DNA from: an uncultured beta proteobacterium
GTDB taxonomy: Bacteria > Pseudomonadota > Gammaproteobacteria > Burkholderiales > Burkholderiaceae_C
Direction: 5' to 3'
NCBI GenBank assembly: GCA_903897925.1
Contig: CAIUDG010000080.1
Coordinates: forward strand, 62,001-126,000
DNA length: 64,000 bases
In this document: positions 53,813 to 64,000 of the stretch, piece by piece
Layout: the number at the start of each line of letters is the position of its first letter
How positions within the stretch are numbered: position 1 is the first letter of the stretch
Translations under genes and position numbers: made by a program
The notes under the pieces: generated by a model
The model's database searches: none
Told to the model about the DNA's origin: nothing
Seen by the model: only the letters and a program-made list of their open reading frames with translations

Positions 53813-54084
53813 GGCAATTTCGGGTAGAGCGCCAATTGTCGCGTATCGGCGTCGATTTTTTATTGCGAGGTGTTGCGGCCCAGGCTGGGCAGCCTTGGCT
53901 ACCAGGCAGCTGCGGGTTTGCTTCGGACCGGGCTATTCGCGCGCCAAAGCGGTCAAATAATTGCAAGCTGCTTGCTATATGCTGCGCTTGGCAAGCCTGA
54001 GCAAGCAGCTTAAACCAAGGCGCTTTGCGGTATCTTCAGCGCCTTTGACCCAGGGCAATTACCGTTTGTTTCTGGAGGGTATCG

Positions 54085-54471
54085 TTGGCACGGTTTGCCG
54101 GATTTTCTCAGACCCGTAGTCGTTCTGAGACAAGCGCCACCTTATACGCCGCAGACGGACGGGAATATATGCATTCATCGGCTGATCAGACGACTTCCCA
54201 GGCGCCGCTCGATAGCGCCATTGCGGCGGAGTTTTTCTCCCGCTCAGCCTTGTATGCGGCTATCAACCTGGCGCACACCCTGAAACTCAAGGTGGTGGCG
54301 GAAGGGGTGGAAACTGAGGCGCAACATTACTTCCTGAATACCGTGCACCAGTGTGACCAATTCCAAGGCTACCTATTCAGTCGCCCGTTGCCGCTGGAAG
54401 CATTCGAGCAACTTCGCACCGAAGTGGCAGCAAAGCAGCGCAAGGCACAGGGTGTCAACAGCGCCATCTGA
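54085..54471 (+). pseudogene. Remnant of an EAL (c-di-GMP phosphodiesterase) domain
   Basis: A 128-codon reading frame from a TTG. Its last 75 residues look like the C-terminal end of an EAL domain: AAINLAHTLKLKVVAEGVETEAQ, then FQGYLFSRPLPLEAFE, which matches the terminal helix/strand of the family (typical GLKVVAEGVET...GYLFSRPLP). The preceding 50-55 residues (QTRSRSETSATLY...) have no EAL, DDFG or metal-binding signature, so the catalytic half is missing. It lies tail-to-tail with a pseudo-receiver gene that itself belongs to a REC-EAL type. It is probably a decayed gene, with no intact active site. Confidence 0.75.
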
Positions 54472-54491
54472 TTTTTGCGGCAGCCTTGTTT

Positions 54492-54899
54492 TTATACCTT
54501 GACTGATAACAGATTGCGGAGCTGCTCTTGTGTCAATATGTCGTTGAAGATATGAACGCAATTCAAGCGGGCAATGTCGGTGGCATCTCTGGATACGCTC
54601 AAAATATTGGTGCATGGAGTGCCCAGCAGAATCAATTGCCCTGAAAAACCAAGATTAATCAACGCAGGAATCAATTCAATAACAGGTATGTCGGTCACCT
54701 TAACGTTATAAAATAGCGCCGCTATTTTTCGGTCGCTAATAATCTTGAGTGCCAGGCTTGCACTGTCGCAAAAGACATTGTTTTTTATATCTAAAGCGTG
54801 CAGCTGCTCACTCATTGCAGCAACACGGATACTGTCGTCGTCAACAATCAATATCGTGCCCTGGTTCGTGCCCTGGTGCTGGGGTAACTGGTGCATCAT
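54492..54899 (-). CDS. Degenerate receiver-domain protein lacking the phospho-acceptor Asp
   Basis: 135-residue single-domain protein with the REC fold. The acidic pocket is kept in ILIVDDD (Asp20, Asp21), but the expected phospho-acceptor position reads LFYN (Asn65), where active receivers have a D. The conserved Lys near the end of the domain is also not evident (HIFNDILTQ). The tail motif ILLGTPCTNIL resembles the receiver of REC-EAL phosphodiesterases (ILLSGE...). It cannot be phosphorylated normally; it may act as a binding domain or be decaying. A CCTAGG-N6-CCCAGTT motif lies 51 bp upstream of its start. The start at 54899 has an alternative ATG one codon later. Confidence 0.75.
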   Translation of the reverse strand: MMHQLPQHQGTNQGTILIVDDDSIRVAAMSEQLHALDIKNNVFCDSASLALKIISDRKIAALFYNVKVTDIPVIELIPALINLGFSGQLILLGTPCTNILSVSRDATDIARLNCVHIFNDILTQEQLRNLLSVKV

Positions 54900-54950
54900 G
54901 CGGTGGCTCTAGCGACGGTGCAGTCAAGCTTACAAGTTGTCGCAAGCGCC

Positions 54951-54972
54951 GGGAACTGGGTATTGACCTAGG
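54951..54972 (-). promoter_or_regulatory. Copy C of the conserved upstream motif
   Basis: On the minus strand: CCTAGG-TCAATA-CCCAGTT then CCC. It matches the other two copies at 16-17 of 22 positions with identical spacing between the two boxes. It is located 51 bp upstream of the pseudo-receiver gene and oriented toward it. Confidence 0.65.
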
Positions 54973-55033
54973 TTGCTTGCGGGTAGACGCAGGTTTAAAG
55001 TCTGCACCAAAGGGCTGTTGGAGCCAATAGCAT

Positions 55034-55444
55034 ATGGAAAATACAGGTGCAGTGCTGAATCAGGAGCTGGATTACAACCATGAGGCGAAGCGCGCGCTTG
55101 CCCAGGCTACGCAAGCGCACAAGCAGTGGAAGACTATTTTTGAAAACTCCCTGAAACAGCAAATACCGATCGATGTGGACAGGGTTCGTCGAGACGACTG
55201 CTGTGGCCTGGGCAAATGGTTGCATACCAATGGGCAACGCTATTACGGCGCACTGCCCGAGTTCACTTTGTTGATCGAGAAACACCGCAGTTTTCACGAA
55301 GTTGCAGGCATTGTCGCCAATGTCATCAATAGCCGACAACTGCCGAATCCGGACGGCATGTTGGGGGCGGGTTCGCAGTTCGCAGTGGCGTCGACCGAAG
55401 TGATTCTTGGTATTTACGCGCTGCAGCGTGTCATAGGACGCTGA
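55034..55444 (+). CDS. CZB-domain zinc-sensing protein
   Basis: 136-residue protein with the chemoreceptor zinc-binding (CZB) domain. Predicted ligands are His29 (AHKQWK), Cys57 in the CGLGKW motif, and His84 and His88 in HRSFHEVAG. CZB domains bind zinc and act as hypochlorite/redox or zinc sensors, usually inside chemoreceptors or diguanylate cyclases. Here the domain is almost the whole protein, with a hydrophobic C-terminal part. No other domain is fused, so it would have to work with another protein. It lies divergent from the pseudo-receiver gene. Confidence 0.85.
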   Translation: MENTGAVLNQELDYNHEAKRALAQATQAHKQWKTIFENSLKQQIPIDVDRVRRDDCCGLGKWLHTNGQRYYGALPEFTLLIEKHRSFHEVAGIVANVINSRQLPNPDGMLGAGSQFAVASTEVILGIYALQRVIGR

Positions 55445-55470
55445 TTGATGGACGCGCCGGCGCTGGCGTA

Positions 55471-55492
55471 CCTAGGGAATCGCCCAGTTCAC
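55471..55492 (+). promoter_or_regulatory. Copy A of the conserved upstream motif
   Basis: CCTAGG-GAATCG-CCCAGTT then CAC, located 71 bp upstream of the orphan Hpt gene start. It differs from copy B at only 2 of 22 positions. The boxes form an imperfect dyad CTAGG/CCCAG separated by six bases, typical of a dimeric NarL/LuxR-type regulator site (inference). Confidence 0.75.
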
Positions 55493-55563
55493 TGAATACG
55501 CATCCGGTTCTAAACTTTGCGCAGGATTACCAATAATCGTGTGGTGAACTTGAGGTCAAGCTC

Positions 55564-55974
55564 ATGTCAATGCTGTCAAGCGCGGTAGTACATCGCCAAC
55601 CCTATGTGATTGATCATCTGCTGCGCTCCCTGTCTGGCAACCGGGTGGCGGCAAAGAAACTGGTGCGCATATTCTTGGATATGTACCCGGAAAAGATAGC
55701 GCTGTTTGACACGGCGCTGCAGGCGGCTGACTGGGTCACCCTGCGCCGCGTGGTGCACGACCTGCGTGGCACTTGTGCGATTGTCTCGGCTAGTTCCTGC
55801 CTGGTCTCTGCCGCCAAGCTGGAAAGCGCATTGCCAGAACATGTTTCCCCAGAACTTCTGCAGGAGTGCGCGTCTTTCAAGACCGCCCTGGCCGAGGTGG
55901 TGGCGGCACTGCAATTATTTTGGGCAGAGCCGACGGAATCTGTGCAGAGCGCTGCGGACGAAGCCAGTCCATGA
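55564..55974 (+). CDS. Stand-alone histidine phosphotransfer (Hpt) protein
   Basis: 136-residue Hpt protein. The phospho-accepting histidine is residue 65 in VVHDLRGTCAIVSA, matching the H-x-L-K/R-G-T core with Arg in place of the usual Lys. The four-helix bundle is readable (about residues 20-120). The ATG at 55564 follows a TTGAGGT site. It could relay phosphate between a hybrid kinase and a response regulator. The hybrid kinase at 57583 lacks an obvious Hpt, and the response regulator gene is convergent to this one, 17 bp away. Confidence 0.85.
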   Translation: MSMLSSAVVHRQPYVIDHLLRSLSGNRVAAKKLVRIFLDMYPEKIALFDTALQAADWVTLRRVVHDLRGTCAIVSASSCLVSAAKLESALPEHVSPELLQECASFKTALAEVVAALQLFWAEPTESVQSAADEASP

Positions 55975-55991
55975 TGCATGCACCACGGGGT

Positions 55992-56618
55992 TCAGCTAAT
56001 CAAGCCCTGCTGCATTGCGTAGCGCGTCAGTGCCGTAACATCGTTGACACCGATTCGGCCCATGATCTGGGCGCGATGGAACTCTACGGTTTTGTGACTG
56101 ATGCCCAGCGTTCGCGCCGCCTGCTTTGTCGTCTGGCCGGAGGCGACCAGACGCAATATCTCAATTTGCCTGGACGTCAGGCAGTCGGCCACGCTGCTTT
56201 CCGGCGCGGTGTTAAGCCGGTCTTTGATTTGCGGCGAAAGATAGCGCTTGCCGGCCAATACGGTGTCAAGCGCGCAACGCAACTCGTCCAACACGAAATC
56301 TTTGTGCAAATAGCCCGAAGCGCCGGCGTCCAGCGCTTGCTGGATGGTCTCTTTCCGGTCAATGGCGGAGAGTATGAGTATTTCGATTGCCGGCAGGCTG
56401 GCATGGATTTGGCGCGTAGCCTCAATGCCACTTACTTCGGGCATATGGATGTCCAGGATCGCCACTTCAGGTTGCCATCGGCGCAGCGCCTCCAGCGCGG
56501 TGCGCCCATCGGCGCACTCCGCTATCACTTCATACTGGGGCAGGGTATCTAGCAAGGCACGCATTCCTTCGCGTACCAGCAACTGATCATCTGCAAGGAT
56601 AATCCGCGTTTTTTCCAT
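55992..56618 (-). CDS. NarL/FixJ-type response regulator (LuxR HTH)
   Basis: 208-residue regulator with receiver (phospho-acceptor Asp56 in AILDIHMPEVSG; Lys about 105 in YLHKDF) and a LuxR-type helix-turn-helix (about 145-205, LTSRQIEILRLVASGQTTKQAARTLGISHKTVEFHR). All phosphorylation residues are intact. It lies convergent to the Hpt gene (17-bp gap) and divergent from the solute-binding protein/hybrid kinase pair. It is the most likely DNA-binding output of the local kinases and a candidate to bind the shared CCTAGG-N6-CCCAGTT motif (inference). Confidence 0.95.
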   Translation of the reverse strand: MEKTRIILADDQLLVREGMRALLDTLPQYEVIAECADGRTALEALRRWQPEVAILDIHMPEVSGIEATRQIHASLPAIEILILSAIDRKETIQQALDAGASGYLHKDFVLDELRCALDTVLAGKRYLSPQIKDRLNTAPESSVADCLTSRQIEILRLVASGQTTKQAARTLGISHKTVEFHRAQIMGRIGVNDVTALTRYAMQQGLIS

Positions 56619-56719
56619 CCGTTCGTTCTATATCAGCCCGATCAAGCGTGGATAGTAACCCAAACATGTTGATTCTTTGGCTGAATATTCTGGCGCGTCT
56701 GGCGGCTATAGGCCGCGCA

Positions 56720-57586
56720 ATGCGCTGGCCGCTGCTGTTCAGTGCGCTCTTGCTTGCTGCTACGCTGGCGCAGGCCAGAGATAGCATTGTCTGGGCTAGC
56801 CTGGATTTTCCTCCCTGGATGATCCTGCAAGGTGAATACCGGGGCCAGGGCGCTTGGGATCTGCTATTCAAAGAAATACAGGCGCAGCTGCCGGATTACG
56901 ACCACCAGGTGGTCGAGATGAATAACGTGCGCTATGAGCAGTTGGCCGCGGCAGGCGCCCATGTGTGCAAGGTGTACTACTTCAAAACCCCGGAACGGGA
57001 GCGCGTGCTGTTTTTCTCCACGCCGGCAACCGTCTTTCTTTCGAACCATATTGTGATGCGCCGGGACAAGGCCGCCTTGCTCGGTTTTCCCGCCAGAACT
57101 TCGCTGCAGCAGCTGTTGCAAGACGCACGTTTTGATGGCAGCTTCATCGAAGGTCGTTCGTATGGGGCGCAGAGTGACCAGGCCATACGCAGCTACCTAG
57201 GCCGCGCCCATCTGCACGCCAACATCAGCAGCAACCAAAGCCTGTTTGAATTTCTGCTGCTGGGCCGGACCGACTACATCCTTGAGTTTCCAGCGGTCCG
57301 CAACTATTTTGAACATGTGCTTTCTGTTCGCCCTGACCTGGTCAACATCGCCATCGAAGAAGCCGCCCCGTACAACCTCACCTACGTTACTTGCGCGCGC
57401 ACCCCATGGGGCGCGCAGGTGATTGCGCGTGTCAACCCGATTCTGCGCCACTACCTCGGCACTCCGGCCTACCGGGCGGCAATGCTGCGCTGGTACCAGG
57501 CAGCAGACCAAGCGCAACTGGCGCGTTATTTTCCCCTGCTGACAGCCGGTTCCGGCACAGCACCAGCGAGGCCCGCCAGACCATGA
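56720..57586 (+). CDS. Periplasmic amino-acid-binding-type (SBP_bac_3) protein
   Basis: 288-residue exported protein resembling the bacterial family-3 solute-binding fold (TIGR02285-like): IVWASLDFPPWMILQGEYRGQGAWDLLF, then SLFEFLLLGRTDYILEFP. The signal peptide MRWPLLFSALLLAATLAQA fits an ATG at 56720; ATG at 56666 and GTG at 56648 are in-frame alternatives that would lengthen the n-region. Ribosome sites are weak for all. No ABC transporter genes are nearby. Its stop overlaps the start of a hybrid kinase gene as ATGA, so it is likely the ligand-sensing partner of that kinase. Confidence 0.82.
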   Translation: MRWPLLFSALLLAATLAQARDSIVWASLDFPPWMILQGEYRGQGAWDLLFKEIQAQLPDYDHQVVEMNNVRYEQLAAAGAHVCKVYYFKTPERERVLFFSTPATVFLSNHIVMRRDKAALLGFPARTSLQQLLQDARFDGSFIEGRSYGAQSDQAIRSYLGRAHLHANISSNQSLFEFLLLGRTDYILEFPAVRNYFEHVLSVRPDLVNIAIEEAAPYNLTYVTCARTPWGAQVIARVNPILRHYLGTPAYRAAMLRWYQAADQAQLARYFPLLTAGSGTAPARPARP

Positions 57587-60075
57587 CCCTGAATTCGTTG
57601 TCGCGTCGACTGACGGTTTTTCTGCTGGCCACCATCGTCGGTGTCGCCCTGGCAACGGGCATTGGTTTTTATGTCTATACGAAGCGGCAGATTGACCAGG
57701 AACTCAAGGACAAGGCCCGGGTCACTCTGGAATATCTGGCTGGCAGTTTTTCCGAGCCCCTGTGGACGCTCAATGAAGTCATCGTCCGGCAGATTGGAAC
57801 GACGGTGGCGCAGGACCCGTCGATCAGTGCCATCGAGGTGATTGACAGTGGGCGCAACAAGCAGATTTTTTCTTACCAGCGCGCACACGATAGCGCCGAC
57901 CTGCAAATGTCCCGCCCGGTGATGCACCAGAATTTTGTAGTGGGCGAAGTGCGCATTGCGTTGAACCGCCGGCAGTTTGATGCGCGCACCCACGAACTGT
58001 TTCTGTTTCTGTTGGTGATGATTGTCATCGTCATTTTGGTCCTGGCGTCTTCGACCACGGCGCTCGTCAATTTTATTTTGCGCCATCCGTTTTCGGAGTT
58101 GACCTGGATTGTGGCCGCGTACAGCCGCGGCGACTACGCGGCTACTACCAAAATACGCTACCGCGAGTTTGAGTCCATCATGCAGCTCATTCAGGGGATG
58201 GGGCAGAAGATTGTCGACCAGCTCAGGCAACTGAAGGAGAGTAACCAGGAGCTGGAGCGCCGGGTGAGCGAACGCACCAACGCGCTTGCCGCCAGCGAGG
58301 CACACTTTCGATTGCTGGTTGAACAATCGCCGGATGGAATTTTTCTTGCCGACCGGGACGGCTGCTATTTGGACGTTAATTCGGTCGGCGCGGCGATGCT
58401 GGGCTATACCCGGCAGGAGATATTGGAGCGATCCCTTTCCGATGTGCTCAGCGCGTCAGAGCGACCACGGCTGGCACCGACCATCGGTAGCTTTGCCAAC
58501 GGCCAGGTGCTTAGTTCGGAGTGGCTATTCGTGCGCAAGGACGGGTCGAACTTCGTTGGCGAGCTGGTTGGCCGCCAGCTTCCCGATGGCCGTCTGCAGG
58601 GCATCCTGCGTGACGTGACCATCCGCAGGCAGGCGGAAAATGAAATGCTGCGCGCCAAGGAACTTGCCGAAGCGGCCAGCCGCGTCAAGTCCGACTTTAT
58701 TGCCAACATGAGCCATGAGCTGCGTACCCCCATGAACGCAATCATTGGCATGTCCCACCTGCTGCTCAACACCGACATCAACCCGCGGCAACGGGACTTC
58801 CTGCGCAAGATACAGCGCTCGTCGCAGCATTTGCTGGACCTGATCAGTGATGTGCTGGATTTTTCCAAGATCGAAGCAGGAGAAATGCGCCTGGACAGTG
58901 TGCCGTTCCAGCTGGAGCATCTGCTCGACGACGTGACGCTGCTGCATTCCGAGCAGGCCGCTGCAAAACAGTTGCAAATCGTATTGAAAGTGGAACCCGA
59001 TGTGCCGCACCAGCTGATCGGCGACTTTATAAAGCTCAAGCAGATATTGCTCAACTTGCTATCCAACGCCATCAAATTTACTCCGCACGGCGAGATCCGC
59101 CTTGGCGTGTGCCTGGTGCCAGTACCGGTCAGCGGGCTGCTGCTGCGCTTTACCGTGGCAGACAGTGGAATCGGTATCGATAAAGACCAGATTGGCCGCC
59201 TGTTCCAGAGCTTTCAGCAGGCCGACAGTTCCACCACCCGCAAATATGGCGGCACCGGACTTGGTTTGGCTATTTCCAAACGTTTGGCCGAGTTGATGGG
59301 CGGAGAAATAGGCGTTTCCAGCGAACCCGGGCATGGCAGTGCGTTCTGGTTTACGGTGCGTCTGCAGCGCGGGGCGGATACCACACCGCACGCTGTGACG
59401 GCGCCGTCTGTCGAGCCGGTGCTGGACCCGGCAGGCATGCGGGCCATCGTCGGCGCGCGTGTCCTGGTGGTGGATGACAACCCCCTGAACCAGGAACTGC
59501 TGCGCATCTTTCTTGAACAGGCCGGCCTGGCCGTGGACGTGGCTGCCAATGGTGCCATGGCGCTGCAGGCGCTGGTACAGCGCAAGGAAAACGACTATGC
59601 ACTCATTCTGATGGACATGCACATGCCAGAAATGGACGGCGCGACGGCCTGTGCTGCCATCCGCCGGGCTCCGCAGTGGGCGGCGCTGCCGATTATCGGA
59701 ATCACCGCCAATGTGGCGCCGGAGGAGCGCAGTTCGGGCCTGCGCGCGGGGATGAACGATGTGACCGACAAGCCGGTGACTCCGAATGCATTGGGTGCTA
59801 TCTTGTTGCGCTGGATCACGCCAGGTCCCGCACCGGCCGTGGCGCCATTGTTGGATGCACAAGCATTTGACCGGGTGTGCCAGACGCTGGCGAACCAGTT
59901 GTCGGGCAATGAATTGCGCGCGAAATATACGCTGTACCAGCACGCCGAACTGCTGCAGTCGGCTTCCCGTTCGGCCTTTGAGGCGCTGCGCGCGGCAGTG
60001 GAAGACATCGACTTTGAACGGGCGCAGGATGCGCTTGTCCTGCTGCGGCGCACGCAGGTCGCGGGCAGCACCTAG
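57583..60075 (+). CDS. Hybrid sensor histidine kinase with PAS and receiver
   Basis: 830-residue membrane kinase. TM1 (about 11-33), a short periplasmic loop of about 100 residues, TM2 (about 143-168), HAMP-like linker, coiled coil, PAS (about 240-355), HisKA with [16 protein letters not shown] (His378), HATPase ([11 protein letters not shown]) and a receiver with Asp678 ([10 protein letters not shown]). The C-terminal 75 residues are helical but show no Hpt histidine motif. The start overlaps the binding-protein stop (ATGA). Phosphoryl output therefore probably needs the separate Hpt and LuxR regulator encoded 2 kb upstream (inference). The stop TAG (60073-60075) lies 3 bp before motif copy B. 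Confidence 0.93.
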
Positions 60076-60078
60076 GAG

Positions 60079-60100
60079 CCTAGGCAATCACCCAGTTCAC
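60079..60100 (+). promoter_or_regulatory. Copy B of the conserved upstream motif
   Basis: CCTAGG-CAATCA-CCCAGTT then CAC, 182 bp upstream of the HD-GYP gene and immediately after the hybrid-kinase stop. It matches copy A at 20 of 22 positions. A second CCTAGG overlaps the kinase stop at 60072. Confidence 0.75.
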
Positions 60101-60282
60101 CTTGGACCGGCAAGCTCCTATGCTTGGCTCTGGTTCACGGCGCACCAATCTGTGGCTACAGGTTGGCGTGCCGTCATGGCGTATTTGCGCTGCATTGATC
60201 GGCGGGTAGACGCCGTGCTTATTTCGCTCAGGGACCCGATACACAGGGAAGCAGACAGAGATAGCGCATTGGGAGTGTGGGG

Positions 60283-61416
60283 ATGGTTCCGAACAAGGAA
60301 AAAACGGTCCTGGTGGTGGATGACACCAAAGAAAACCTGACTGTCATTGGCGAGTTGCTTGAGCCGACGTACCGTGTGCGTCTGGCCTTGTCCGGAGAGC
60401 GGGCGCTGAAAGTGGCGCAGTTGGACCCGCGCCCCGACCTGATACTGCTGGATGTGATGATGCCGGAAATGGACGGCTATGCGGTGCTGGAGCGGCTGCG
60501 GGCGATCCCGGCGACGCGGGATATTCCGGTGATTTTCGTTACCGCCATGAACGCCATGGAAGATGAGGAGCGTGGCTTGCGCCTGGGTGCGGTGGACTAT
60601 GTAACCAAGCCTATACGCCCGGCTATTCTTCTGGCCCGTGTCAACACCCATATTGAACTCAAGCAGGCGCGCGACTGGCTCGCGGACCAGAACGGCTATC
60701 TCGAAAGCGTGGTGAAACGGCGCACCTGGGAAAACGAACTGATCAAAGACATCAGTCTGAACGCACTGGCGACGCTGGCCGCGAAGCGCGACAACGAAAC
60801 CGGCAACCACCTGCAACGCACCCGCTCCTATGTAGAAGCACTGATGCTGCGCTTGTGCGATCACCCGCGTTTCCAGGCGCATCTCGGGCCGCGCCAGCGC
60901 GCCATGATTGCCAAAGCGACACCGTTGCACGATATCGGCAAGGTGGGTATTCCCGACCACATTCTGCTCAAGCCCGGTCGCCTTACGCCGACGGAATTCG
61001 AGACCATGAAATGCCACGCCCAGATCGGCTCGGACGCCCTGACGGACGCGATGCAGCGGGTGCTGGGCCGGGATGCGGAACTGCTCAAGGCAGAGCGGGA
61101 AGACTCACCGCTGGCGTTTCTGGAAGTGGCGCGGCAAATTGCTATTGGTCACCACGAACGCTGGGATGGAACGGGCTATCCGGCGGGTCTCGCAGGCGAT
61201 GCCATACCGGTTTGCGCACGGCTGATGGCCCTGGCCGATGTTTACGACGCCATGATCAGTCGCCGCCACTACAAGGGGCCGATTCCGGTAGCCGAAGTGG
61301 TGGCCACCATCGCCGCCGGAAGCGGCTCGCATTTTGACCCCGACATCGTCGATGCCTTCCTCGGCTTACAGGAGCAGTTTGCTGAAATTTCCAGTCGTTA
61401 CGACGACGCGAAATAG
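60283..61416 (+). CDS. HD-GYP response regulator (c-di-GMP phosphodiesterase, RpfG-like)
   Basis: 377-residue protein: receiver (phospho-acceptor Asp57 in LLDVMMPEMDG, Lys about residue 109) followed by an HD-GYP domain with HDIGKVGIPDHILLKPG (His216, Asp217) and HHERWDGTGYP (290-300). Such enzymes hydrolyse c-di-GMP to GMP or pGpG. It could lower c-di-GMP and thereby reduce Pel production through PelD (inference). The ATG at 60283 was chosen because GGGAG lies 7 bp upstream; a GTG at 60277 is in frame. Motif copy B precedes it. Confidence 0.95.
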   Translation: MVPNKEKTVLVVDDTKENLTVIGELLEPTYRVRLALSGERALKVAQLDPRPDLILLDVMMPEMDGYAVLERLRAIPATRDIPVIFVTAMNAMEDEERGLRLGAVDYVTKPIRPAILLARVNTHIELKQARDWLADQNGYLESVVKRRTWENELIKDISLNALATLAAKRDNETGNHLQRTRSYVEALMLRLCDHPRFQAHLGPRQRAMIAKATPLHDIGKVGIPDHILLKPGRLTPTEFETMKCHAQIGSDALTDAMQRVLGRDAELLKAEREDSPLAFLEVARQIAIGHHERWDGTGYPAGLAGDAIPVCARLMALADVYDAMISRRHYKGPIPVAEVVATIAAGSGSHFDPDIVDAFLGLQEQFAEISSRYDDAK

Positions 61417-61449: not shown

Positions 61450-62580
61450 ATGAAAACTGAAATCTATTTGTCCGGTGATCAGATGCGGTCCGACGCGTTG
61501 CGCAACACCCTGGAGCGTTGGCATGCGAGTGATCCTTCGCGCATGGCCTTTGCGCTGGTTCCGGAAGCAGAACAGGCGTGCGTCAGCCTGTTGCAGAACG
61601 AATGCCTTCGTGCCGGCGTGCCACTGGCGGGGGCCGTCTTTCCTGCACTGATTCAGGAAAATCGCTTTGTCACTTCGGGTGTCTGGCTGTTAAGCCCGGC
61701 ACTCGGGAGCGGGCGCTTTCTGATCAATGATCTCGACAGCAATGCCATGCTTTGTGCGCATCGGATCGCTGCGGCGGTGCGACCACAACTCGGCGCCAGA
61801 AAAATGACGCTGTTCATGGTGTTTGACAGCATGGTGAGCCATATTTCCAGCATTCTGGATGAGCTCTATCTGGAGCTGGGCGATGCCGTCAATTACCTCG
61901 GCGTCAACGCCGGCAGTGAAAGTTTCCAGCCATTGGACTGCCTGTTCGACAACTACATGCTGGAGGGCAACGCAGTGCTGTGCCTGCTCATTCCAGAGTT
62001 TGAGGCGGCACTGGCGCACGGTTATGCGTCGCCTGAAGAAGTGGTGAGCGTTACTGCCAGTGTGGGAAACCGCATTACGCACATCGACTGGCGACCGGCC
62101 TTTGAGGTCTACCGCGAACAGATCAAGCAAATTTATGCGATTGAACTGACCCGCGAAAACTTTTACCAGTACGCAGTGCATTTTCCTTTCGGAATTGCAC
62201 TGGCCACGGGTGAGACCTTGGTCAGGATACCGGTCGGCGTCGCGCCGGATGGCGCCATCCATTGCGTTGGCGAAGTTCCGGAGTACGCCATGCTGACCCT
62301 GCTGCAGGGACCGGTGCCGGGTGCCACCGACGTGCTGGAAAAAATCGCCAGCCATCTGGCGTCTCCTGGACCGGAAGCCCTTCTACTTGGCTTCTATTGC
62401 GCCGGGCGACGCATGCACCTTGGCAACGCAGCGGAACAGGAATTGCTGCACCTGGCGCAAAGGACCGGCATGGCGATTGGCGGTGCGCTATCCCTGGGCG
62501 AAATTGGAAGTATTGAGCGCGGTGCCTATCCATATTTTCATAACGGTGCACTGGTGTGCGCCCACTGGACTGCAATATGA
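61450..62580 (+). CDS. FIST-domain sensory protein
   Basis: 376-residue cytosolic protein of the FIST (F-box and intracellular signal transduction) family. It has FIST_N (about 1-200) with GVWLLSPALGSG and FVSSMVSHI-like FDSMVSHISSILDELY, followed by FIST_C (about 210-370) with a C-terminal FHNGALVCAHWTAI. FIST proteins are proposed to sense small ligands such as amino acids and signal to kinases or diguanylate cyclases. The stop overlaps the start of the next kinase gene by ATGA (62577-62580), so it is translationally coupled to it. Confidence 0.9.
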   Translation: MKTEIYLSGDQMRSDALRNTLERWHASDPSRMAFALVPEAEQACVSLLQNECLRAGVPLAGAVFPALIQENRFVTSGVWLLSPALGSGRFLINDLDSNAMLCAHRIAAAVRPQLGARKMTLFMVFDSMVSHISSILDELYLELGDAVNYLGVNAGSESFQPLDCLFDNYMLEGNAVLCLLIPEFEAALAHGYASPEEVVSVTASVGNRITHIDWRPAFEVYREQIKQIYAIELTRENFYQYAVHFPFGIALATGETLVRIPVGVAPDGAIHCVGEVPEYAMLTLLQGPVPGATDVLEKIASHLASPGPEALLLGFYCAGRRMHLGNAAEQELLHLAQRTGMAIGGALSLGEIGSIERGAYPYFHNGALVCAHWTAI

Positions 62581-64000
62581 ACCGGGTCAGGCTGCTGACC
62601 ATGCTCTATGACCTGGCCCGGGTCATTGGCGCGCAGAGCAGTTTGCCGCCACTGCTCAAGCGCGCGCTGCAGCGGCTGATGTTTCATACCGGCTTTCCGG
62701 TGGGTGCCGTGTTGCGCCAGGTGCTCAGTGCAGAGGGCGCCGTATTGCGGCTCGATACGGTGCTGGGCGACCACCGCATGGCGGCCCGCAGTGGCAGCAC
62801 CGTGGACATGCCAGTGGCCTGGGCGCAGGGGCCGATTGCGTTGCTGCGCGGTGCGCTGGTGCAGCAAGGTGCGGGAACCCTGCTGGACGGCTATGGCGCG
62901 GCACTGCGGTTGCCGGTACCCGGCTTTGGCGCCATCGTGTTGCTTGGCAAAGCAGACCGCGCGATCGACCTGCCCATCGCCGAACTGTTTCCGCAGATTC
63001 TGGACAACCTGTCCCAAGCGATCACGCTGTGTGCCAACAACGATGACTATGCGCGGCAAATCGAGGAAGACCGCGACAGTGCGCGGCAAAAGCTGGAAAT
63101 GGAGCGCACGCGCTTGCACACCCTGGTTTCATCCATTCCCGATGTGGTCTGGCTCAAGGACCCGGACGGCGTTTACCTCTTTTGCAATCCCAAGTTCGAG
63201 AGTTTCTTTGGCAGCGCCGAAGCCGACATCATCGGCAAGACCGATTACGACTTCGTTGACCGCGAGCAGGCAGACTTCTTTCGTGAAAATGACCGCAAGG
63301 CCATGGAGCTTGGCGGACCGCGCACCAATGAAGAATGGCTGACCTTTGCCTCGAATGGGTACCGCGGACTGTTCGAGGCCACCAAGGTGCCCATGCGCGC
63401 CGGGAACGGACAGCTCATCGGTGTGCTGGGCGTGGCGCGTGACATCACCTTGCGCAAACAAATGGAAGACGAATTGCGGCAAAGCGACCAGCGTTTTCGC
63501 AGCATGTTTGAAATGTCTCCGGACCCGGTGTGGCTCATCGAGGATCAGCATTTTGTGGAATGCAATCAGGCGGCGGTGAGCATGCTGGGTTTTCGCGAGA
63601 AGTCGGAATTCCTGCACATCCATCCCGGGCAGATATCGCCGCAATACCAGCCTGACGGAGAAGCGTCTTTCAGCAAAGCCGAACGCATGATGGCAATGGC
63701 CAAGGAAAAAGGCATGCACCGTTTCGAGTGGGTGCACTTGCGCGCGGATGGCAGCACCTTTGACGCCGAAGTGACGCTGTCTGCGCTGCGCCTGCAGGAT
63801 CGCCCAATTATTTATTGCACCTGGCGCGACATCACGCAGCGCAAACAGACGGAGCGCGAGCTGAAAAGTCACCAGGAGCACCTGGAGGAGTTGGTTGCGT
63901 CACGCACCAACGAACTGCAGGCCAGCCAGCAACAGTTGGCGACGATTATTGAAAACCTGCCCGCCATCTTGTTTACCAAAGATGCGCAAGGCCGCCACCT
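62577..64000 (+). CDS. GAF/PAS multi-domain sensor protein, 3'-truncated by window edge
   Basis: The frame starts at ATG 62577 (MNRVRLLTMLYDLARVIGAQ) and is open to the end of the window, 474 codons. A GAF-like domain (about 1-150), a helical linker, a PAS/PAC unit with WLKDPDGVYLFCNPKFESFFG (about 185-300) and a second PAS (about 300-430, MFEMSPDPVWLIED) are visible. A coiled coil (SHQEHLEELVASRTNEL) and the beginning of a third PAS follow. The partner FIST gene overlaps by ATGA. The output domain (histidine kinase, or GGDEF/EAL) is outside the window. It is most likely a hybrid histidine kinase, because such FIST-kinase pairs are known, but this is not visible. Confidence 0.9.
   Translation, partial: MNRVRLLTMLYDLARVIGAQSSLPPLLKRALQRLMFHTGFPVGAVLRQVLSAEGAVLRLDTVLGDHRMAARSGSTVDMPVAWAQGPIALLRGALVQQGAGTLLDGYGAALRLPVPGFGAIVLLGKADRAIDLPIAELFPQILDNLSQAITLCANNDDYARQIEEDRDSARQKLEMERTRLHTLVSSIPDVVWLKDPDGVYLFCNPKFESFFGSAEADIIGKTDYDFVDREQADFFRENDRKAMELGGPRTNEEWLTFASNGYRGLFEATKVPMRAGNGQLIGVLGVARDITLRKQMEDELRQSDQRFRSMFEMSPDPVWLIEDQHFVECNQAAVSMLGFREKSEFLHIHPGQISPQYQPDGEASFSKAERMMAMAKEKGMHRFEWVHLRADGSTFDAEVTLSALRLQDRPIIYCTWRDITQRKQTERELKSHQEHLEELVASRTNELQASQQQLATIIENLPAILFTKDAQGRH

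Follow-up and report, generated by a model that had tools for sequence, protein, structure and literature searches.

The DNA analyzed here is a 64,000-nucleotide stretch, hereafter the window, of an uncultured beta proteobacterium of the order Burkholderiales (GenBank assembly GCA_903897925.1, contig CAIUDG010000080.1, positions 62,001 to 126,000). Toward its end lies a cluster of signaling genes with three copies of a short inverted repeat, CCTAGG-N6-CCCAGTT, which we call dyads A, B and C (Table 1). The cluster encodes a probable pseudo-receiver, a CZB protein, a stand-alone Hpt protein, a NarL/FixJ-type response regulator and a hybrid histidine kinase, followed by REC-HD-GYP, FIST-domain and further kinase genes. 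We consider it probable that the dyads are the operators of the response regulator encoded between them, which would activate the hpt gene of a presumed phosphorelay together with genes for cyclic di-GMP (c-di-GMP) turnover. Because the dyads keep a constant spacing to predicted promoters and are found again next to the regulator's nearest relatives in other bacteria, they most likely let the adjacent regulator control its own signaling circuit.

A preliminary description of this DNA had placed the three copies, with identical spacing of their two boxes, in non-coding DNA, each upstream of the gene toward which it is oriented, at 51, 71 and 182 bp. This is borne out, with the start codons at 54899 (minus strand), 55564 and 60283, as is the imperfect inverted repeat that CTAGG and CCCAG form around six bases. 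The 13-base pattern matches all three places with zero mismatches (54954-54972 in dyad A, and the positions of Table 1 in B and C). The claim that A and B agree at 20 of 22 positions was mistaken, since direct comparison gives 16/22 for A and B, and 20/22 belongs to B and C. The genome-wide scan that had been proposed returns only three exact matches in 4,176,924 bases, namely the dyads of the window, and none for the backward-pattern control. Allowing up to one mismatch gives 10 matches for the pattern and 5 for the control, so only the exact copies stand out; one-mismatch matches were not counted as sites. First-order Markov resampling gave no exact match in 300 runs of the 5.25-kb segment or in 40 of the window. 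Among 101 genomes, G012, G050 and G062 each have a single copy of the exact pattern, which looks like chance, and G015, G026, G067 and G095 each have one of the control. A degenerate pattern that includes a -10 hexamer has four zero-mismatch sites in the genome, all within 26 kb of contig C80, and eight further one-mismatch sites dispersed over other contigs. The fourth, weaker dyad precedes a periplasmic-binding/GGDEF (SBP_bac_3-GGDEF) gene, i.e., a diguanylate cyclase gene (L086:15252-16790, minus strand).

The proposed binder has a receiver with the phospho-acceptor Asp and a C-terminal LuxR-type helix-turn-helix (HTH), both domains matching above cut-off, as is characteristic of the NarL/FixJ type, and its recognition helix reads SHKTVEFHR. 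D10, D11, D56 and K106 are invariant in 19 aligned sequences. Its best NCBIfam model is MctR (NF052445), which it matches at 170.8 bits against a cut-off of 300. It also stays below the cut-offs of the UvrY/SirA/GacA model NF007018 (115.8 bits, cut-off 280) and the ErdR model (67.3 bits, cut-off 390). At E 1e-40, relatives occur in 18 of 103 genomes of its genus including its own, the best other being 47% identical. Since the genus has no close orthologue, the comparison was moved to other families. A search of 399 genomes of the order at E 1e-50 found 10 carriers besides our own genome (11 with it). Among 369 genomes drawn from the class, ours is the only carrier. The 297 genomes of family f21 that were searched hold eight carriers, three of them new (G728, G781 and G519), and seven genomes of a genus in family f22 added the carrier G170. 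Among the genomes searched, the regulator/Hpt pair is found only within one order. G+C content is 0.51-0.55 at 54000-56000 and 0.63 in the window, which, since the other 102 genomes of the genus have no close regulator, would be consistent with acquisition from elsewhere. A single-protein scan of genome contigs gave 24 loci with only distant relatives (at most 43% over short segments) and was not used. On plasmids, relatives of the regulator are at most 45% identical among the best 10 matches listed, and the one from Eleftheria terrae sits in a BLUF/chemotaxis cluster. An HD-GYP relative on an Aquabacterium olei plasmid is followed by a large response-regulator protein, with no FIST or LuxR gene among the 22 features listed.

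The dyad is present in seven of the 10 other carriers in the order, five in f21 with regulators 56-62% identical to our own and two in f22 (47-48%). In f21, hpt is convergent with the regulator gene and is preceded by the dyad in all eight carriers found, with sequences including CCTAGGGTAATACCCGGTT, CCTAGGGTAATGCCGAGTT, ACTAGGGTATCACCCGGTT and CCTAGGTGATACCCCAGTT. In all three f22 carrier genomes (regulators 45-48% identical), the regulator gene has CTAGG-N6-CCTAG palindromes on either side, e.g., ACTAGGCATCGACCTAGT. One of these precedes an HD-GYP gene and has xAGAAT at offset 40, where offsets are counted with the first C of CCTAGG as base 0. The dyad adjoins the regulator in each of the four loci found later. 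Three of them (G728, G781 and G519) are one mismatch away from the window consensus, and G170 is three away, with two near-perfect palindromes. Eight hpt upstream regions were aligned (our own, G465, G320, G438, G380, G728, G781 and G519; G213 was omitted, its site being identical to that of G465). Mean column identity is 46%, and 10 of the 12 invariant columns fall in the dyad, nine in the arms and one in the gap; the other two are a C just behind it and an A in the -10 hexamer. In G380 and G519, both of f21, the regulator gene has hpt on one side and, on the other, HD-GYP/FIST/kinase genes resembling those of the window, and otherwise the genes around regulator and dyad differ between genera. 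An inverted repeat conserved beside its regulator across species is the mark of a NarL/FixJ-type operator, and the dyad is predicted to be one. As to further copies, G380 has a degenerate one, CTCGGGTAACGCCCCGGTT (L070:8829-8847), that starts 23 bases before its dyad, a possible tandem operator. It also has a second dyad elsewhere, ACTAGG-N6-CCTAGT (L119; G380:C2:262324-262369, minus strand); about 25 bp downstream of it starts an open frame of 500 amino acids or more.

A -10-like hexamer begins at base 40 in dyads A, B and C (TAAGCT, TAAACT and TATGCT), and GATAAT stands at the same offset behind the fourth dyad, so all four sites of our genome share it. In f21 the offset is 40 or 41 in six of the seven aligned loci. 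The -35-like hexamers TTCCCG, TTCACT or TTCACC lie 17 nucleotides 5' of the -10-like ones and overlap the dyad end. When the bases behind the dyads were shuffled, the observed score was reached in 8 of 20,000 trials for A, B and C, and in 0 of 20,000 with the fourth site included. With the hexamer set at -12 to -7, the core CTAGG-N6-CCCAG falls at about -51 to -36. Because the hexamer stands at the same distance in each copy, the dyad would be centered near -43.5, the position of a class II activator, whose sites have their center near -41 to -44. On these predicted promoters, the center, the overlap or abutment with the -35 element and the fixed spacing to the -10 element all agree with a class II site. 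The -10 hexamers, with a C before TAxRCT in several sites, may be of a stationary-phase sigma type, a likeness that is not used in our argument. On the plus strand, TTGCTT-N17-TAAAGT (54973-55001, with TAAAGT at 54996-55001) points toward the CZB gene, judged from the letters only.

The same regulator could instead act as a repressor, if the dyad over the -35 element blocked polymerase until phosphorylation altered binding. The CCCAGTT arm does overlap the -35-like hexamer, where repressors also sit, and the f22 palindromes are found on both sides of the regulator gene. We regard repression as unlikely, since both hexamers are poor, as in activator-dependent promoters, and the distance from dyad to promoter is constant to one base in our genome and in those six f21 loci, as activators require. 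Moreover, the LuxR-type regulator CrbR activates from a repeat at -52 to -36 (PMC5715377). Activation is therefore what we infer here.

The recognition helix provides a further line of evidence. Across 32 regulator loci, the dyad is found in 12 of the 13 whose helix ends in EFHR or EYHR and in none of the 19 others (ETHR, DTHR or, in L031, a helix that was not parsed), scored by the family consensus with at most one mismatch. The sole EF/YHR locus without it is in G163. A strict pattern with the -10 hexamer has eight sites in five of the 399 genomes of the order, against two sites in two genomes for the backward control. Four of those five genomes are among the 11 regulator carriers (Fisher p 1.6e-6; the p-values are optimistic because the pattern was partly shaped on carriers and some loci are near-duplicates). 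G191 has a strict-pattern match and, at E 1e-50, no regulator. A matrix built from nine sites of the relatives, none from the window, ranks our four sites first to fourth in 83 kb, with scores of 23.5 (dyad C, highest), 22.2, 21.9 (dyad A, third) and 17.2. Dyads A and B read backwards come next (14.5 and 14.0), and the next unrelated match scores 13.1.

Some other DNA-binding protein might read the dyad and merely tend to control genes near the regulator. Binding by the regulator is deduced from comparison, the genome has many further response-regulator-like stretches (136 first-look candidates), and a GerE/hydrolase fusion is encoded beside the fourth site. Nevertheless, such a binder is improbable, since the strict pattern coincides with the regulator across the 399 genomes, the dyad is absent where the recognition helix differs, and the remaining gene neighborhood varies between genera. 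The preliminary description had suggested a local regulon with this LuxR-type regulator as the natural candidate binder, and our comparison supports such a predicted regulon: relatives in other families keep the dyad, loci with another helix lack it, and our genome has its four copies within 26 kb. The site, its spacing, its phylogenetic footprint and its tracking with the regulator and the recognition helix are direct observations.

Several results weigh against the operator assignment. The bare core CTAGG-N6-CCYRG, taken alone, occurs in 10 of the 13 EF/YHR loci and in 1 of the 19 others (L024). Some relatives had already been inspected when the family consensus and the strict pattern were loosened, and loci L032/L034 and L037/L038 are near-duplicates; for these reasons we place more weight on the four later loci and on the matrix of the relatives. 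Three of the 10 other carriers, G163 (f14), G099 and G228 (f40), are without the dyad, and with 46-49% identity they are about as close to our regulator as those of f22. Two of the three have another recognition helix. The third, G163, has a KTIEYHR helix and an Hpt-like frame alongside the regulator, with no dyad found (L073, 9442-10450); its operator may have changed together with the helix. In G519 one arm is changed (CCTAGT) and there is no clear -10 hexamer, and in G380 the dyad is seen before hpt only and not before the HD-GYP/FIST operon. No dyad is seen directly before the regulator gene, at up to three mismatches in our genome and up to one in the f21 loci. The promoter hexamers are weak, e.g., AAAACT in G380, and a generic sigma-70 scan called none of the three dyad promoters of the window. 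Thus, the identity of the promoters rests on their fixed spacing.

The dyad might also serve an alternative sigma factor as its -35 element and not be an operator, which would account for its constant distance to the -10 hexamer. We consider this very improbable. The dyad is two-fold symmetric, with perfect core palindromes in f22, and thus indicates a protein dimer; in addition, its center lies about 31 bases before the -10 hexamer, a greater distance than that of a -35 element. That the dyads are a dispersed repeat or are alike by chance, for which one might cite that the window has only three copies, is hardly credible given no exact match in 340 resamplings, the concentration of invariant hpt upstream columns in the dyad and the top ranks of our sites in the matrix of the relatives.

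The features of the locus are collected in Table 1. The receiver-like protein encoded behind dyad A matches Response_reg below the cut-off (E 0.034, 14.7 bits), and, as read from its translation, Asn seems to stand in place of the usual acceptor Asp. The hybrid kinase upstream of dyad C ends in a receiver, and a domain search gave no Hpt match in it. Behind dyad C, the FIST-domain protein adjoins a histidine kinase, a 1202-amino-acid open frame (62556-66164 on the contiguous contig) whose part outside the window (L086:2-2164) holds PAS-HisKA-HATPase-REC-Hpt. The frame that follows, at L086:2180-5068 (plus strand), encodes another hybrid kinase; its N-terminal domain is a hemerythrin domain, and it has two receiver matches and an Hpt domain as well. 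Just upstream of the fourth site, L086:16932-18734 (minus strand) is a 600-amino-acid frame with an alpha/beta-hydrolase domain and a LuxR-type (GerE) HTH. At the cluster edge, 54085-54471 (plus strand) carries an EAL domain fragment that covers profile positions 189-236 only, apparently the remnant of a c-di-GMP phosphodiesterase gene.

Table 1. Dyads, promoter-like hexamers and genes of the cluster (window positions unless a contig or locus is named).
Feature	Position	Strand	Basis or remark
Dyad A, ACCTAGG-N6-CCCAGTT	54954-54973	-	exact match; upstream of receiver-like gene, divergent from CZB gene
Dyad B	55471-55489	+	exact match; upstream of hpt; equivalents conserved in family f21
Dyad C	60079-60097	+	exact match; upstream of HD-GYP/FIST/kinase genes
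Fourth, weaker dyad CCTGGGGAAATACCCGGTT	G000:C80:142868-142886 = L086:16868-16886	-	about 17 kb past window end
-35-like TTCCCG (weak), overlaps end of dyad A	54950-54955	-	direct reading; 17 nt before -10-like hexamer
-10-like TAAGCT, dyad A	54927-54932	-	offset 40
-35-like TTCACT, overlaps end of dyad B	55488-55493	+	direct reading
-10-like TAAACT, dyad B	55511-55516	+	offset 40
-35-like TTCACC, overlaps end of dyad C	60096-60101	+	direct reading
-10-like TATGCT, dyad C	60119-60124	+	offset 40
Receiver-like protein, 135 amino acids, probable pseudo-receiver; predicted dyad A target	54492-54899	-	weak Response_reg match
Stand-alone CZB (zinc-binding) protein; possible second dyad A target	55034-55444	+	PF13682 35.3 bits
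Stand-alone Hpt phosphotransfer protein; predicted dyad B target	55564-55974	+	PF01627 38.4 bits; HDLRG motif present
NarL/FixJ-type response regulator (REC + LuxR HTH); proposed binder	55992-56618	-	PF00072 89.2, PF00196 62.5 bits
Periplasmic-binding-like protein; possible sensor partner of next kinase	56648-57586	+	weak SBP_bac_3, E 0.026, below cut-off
Hybrid histidine kinase PAS-HisKA-HATPase-REC; possible phosphate source	57583-60075	+	domain matches
REC-HD-GYP protein, first gene behind dyad C	60283-61416	+	PF00072, PF13487; HD and GYP residues intact
FIST-domain protein (domain of NosP), second gene behind dyad C	61450-62580	+	PF10442 75.6, PF08495 43.3 bits
Kinase frame, third gene behind dyad C	62556-64000, runs 2.16 kb past window	+	overlaps end of FIST gene

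We propose that the dyads, with the consensus [AC]CTAGG-N6-CCYRGTT, would be read by the NarL/FixJ-type regulator as follows. The gene layout, with a CZB protein, the regulator, a binding-protein-like gene and the hybrid kinase encoded between the dyads, is what a kinase-Hpt-regulator phosphorelay needs, and phosphate would pass from the nearby hybrid kinase to the stand-alone Hpt protein and on to the regulator, an order of flow that is presumed here, as is the signal that starts it, whether nitric oxide or another. The phosphorylated regulator would bind as a dimer, one subunit per half-site, with its center at about -43.5. There it would overlap or abut the poor -35 hexamer and recruit RNA polymerase at the poor -10 hexamer, i.e., by class II activation. 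Predicted targets in our genome are hpt, the receiver-like gene, the REC-HD-GYP/FIST/kinase set and the diguanylate cyclase gene about 17 kb past the window, and dyad A perhaps also serves the divergent CZB gene. Among these, hpt is conserved as a target in f21, HD-GYP genes are shared by f22 and our own genome, and the diguanylate cyclase gene is added here. With hpt predicted as the target kept in f21, the circuit would act back on the phosphotransfer step within it; it would increase the amount of its phosphotransfer protein and modulate c-di-GMP turnover. More tentatively, the regulator/Hpt pair with an operator code of its own (CTAGG-N6-CCYRG and the KTVEFHR helix) may possibly add transcriptional feedback to a c-di-GMP circuit of FIST and HD-GYP proteins, with the regulator controlling the supply of the phosphotransfer protein by which it is activated and also an enzyme that degrades and one that makes c-di-GMP.

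These results give a concrete predicted operator together with its likely binder, and the regulon predicted from them is very small, with four sites here and, in most of the relatives examined, one or two that are clear. They connect c-di-GMP enzymes and a transcription factor with a presumed phosphorelay, links that do not emerge from annotation alone. The KTVEFHR helix signature should allow the same operator to be predicted in other genomes. If hpt is indeed controlled by its own downstream regulator, this would be a simple way of tuning the gain of the phosphorelay.

In the literature searched, mostly at title and abstract level, we found no description of a CTAGG-N6-CCYRG operator. HnoC, the transcriptional regulator of the Shewanella Hno network, belongs to another regulator type. 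That network comprises two kinases, HnoC and c-di-GMP response regulators, one of them HD-GYP, and so shares the kinase/transcriptional regulator/HD-GYP composition of the window cluster (PMC6335343). The GacA/UvrY box, TGTAAG-N6-CTTACA (PMC3171408), also belongs to a NarL/FixJ-type response regulator and has the same 6-N6-6 geometry, but its arm sequences are unrelated, and the predicted targets in the window are signaling genes, not small RNAs. CrbR (ErdR), likewise a response regulator of the LuxR type, receives its input from a hybrid kinase, and its ACTU motif is an imperfect inverted repeat directly before the promoter, where the core in the window takes nearly the same place; its arms differ (listed sites such as TACTACCATCGTCGAAT), and it controls acetate genes (PMC5715377). 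In RpuS/R, a pyruvate system related to MctR, the motif is an imperfect direct repeat, unlike the inverted dyad of the window (PMC9100948). The genes behind dyad C match nosR-nosP-nosK of Burkholderia in domain types and order, REC-HD-GYP, FIST and histidine kinase (PMC12570481). However, the HD-GYP residues are degenerate in Burkholderia NosR and intact in the window, where the third gene encodes a PAS hybrid kinase that includes REC and Hpt, the FIST match is low-scoring, and an extra transcriptional regulator and Hpt protein are encoded alongside. NosR (NF053512) is the best NCBIfam model for the REC-HD-GYP protein, at 125.8 bits with a cut-off of 400. As the protein falls below that cut-off, we do not assign these genes to NosR-NosP-NosK. 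In Pseudomonas, the gene of a LuxR-type regulator, agmR/erbR, adjoins nosP-nahK, and NahK phosphorylates HptB, so that a FIST protein, a hybrid kinase and a LuxR-type regulator are encoded together as in the window; that regulator is tied to alcohol oxidation (PMC12997753). The arrangement in the window is of an ordinary kind, and the particular site seems new.

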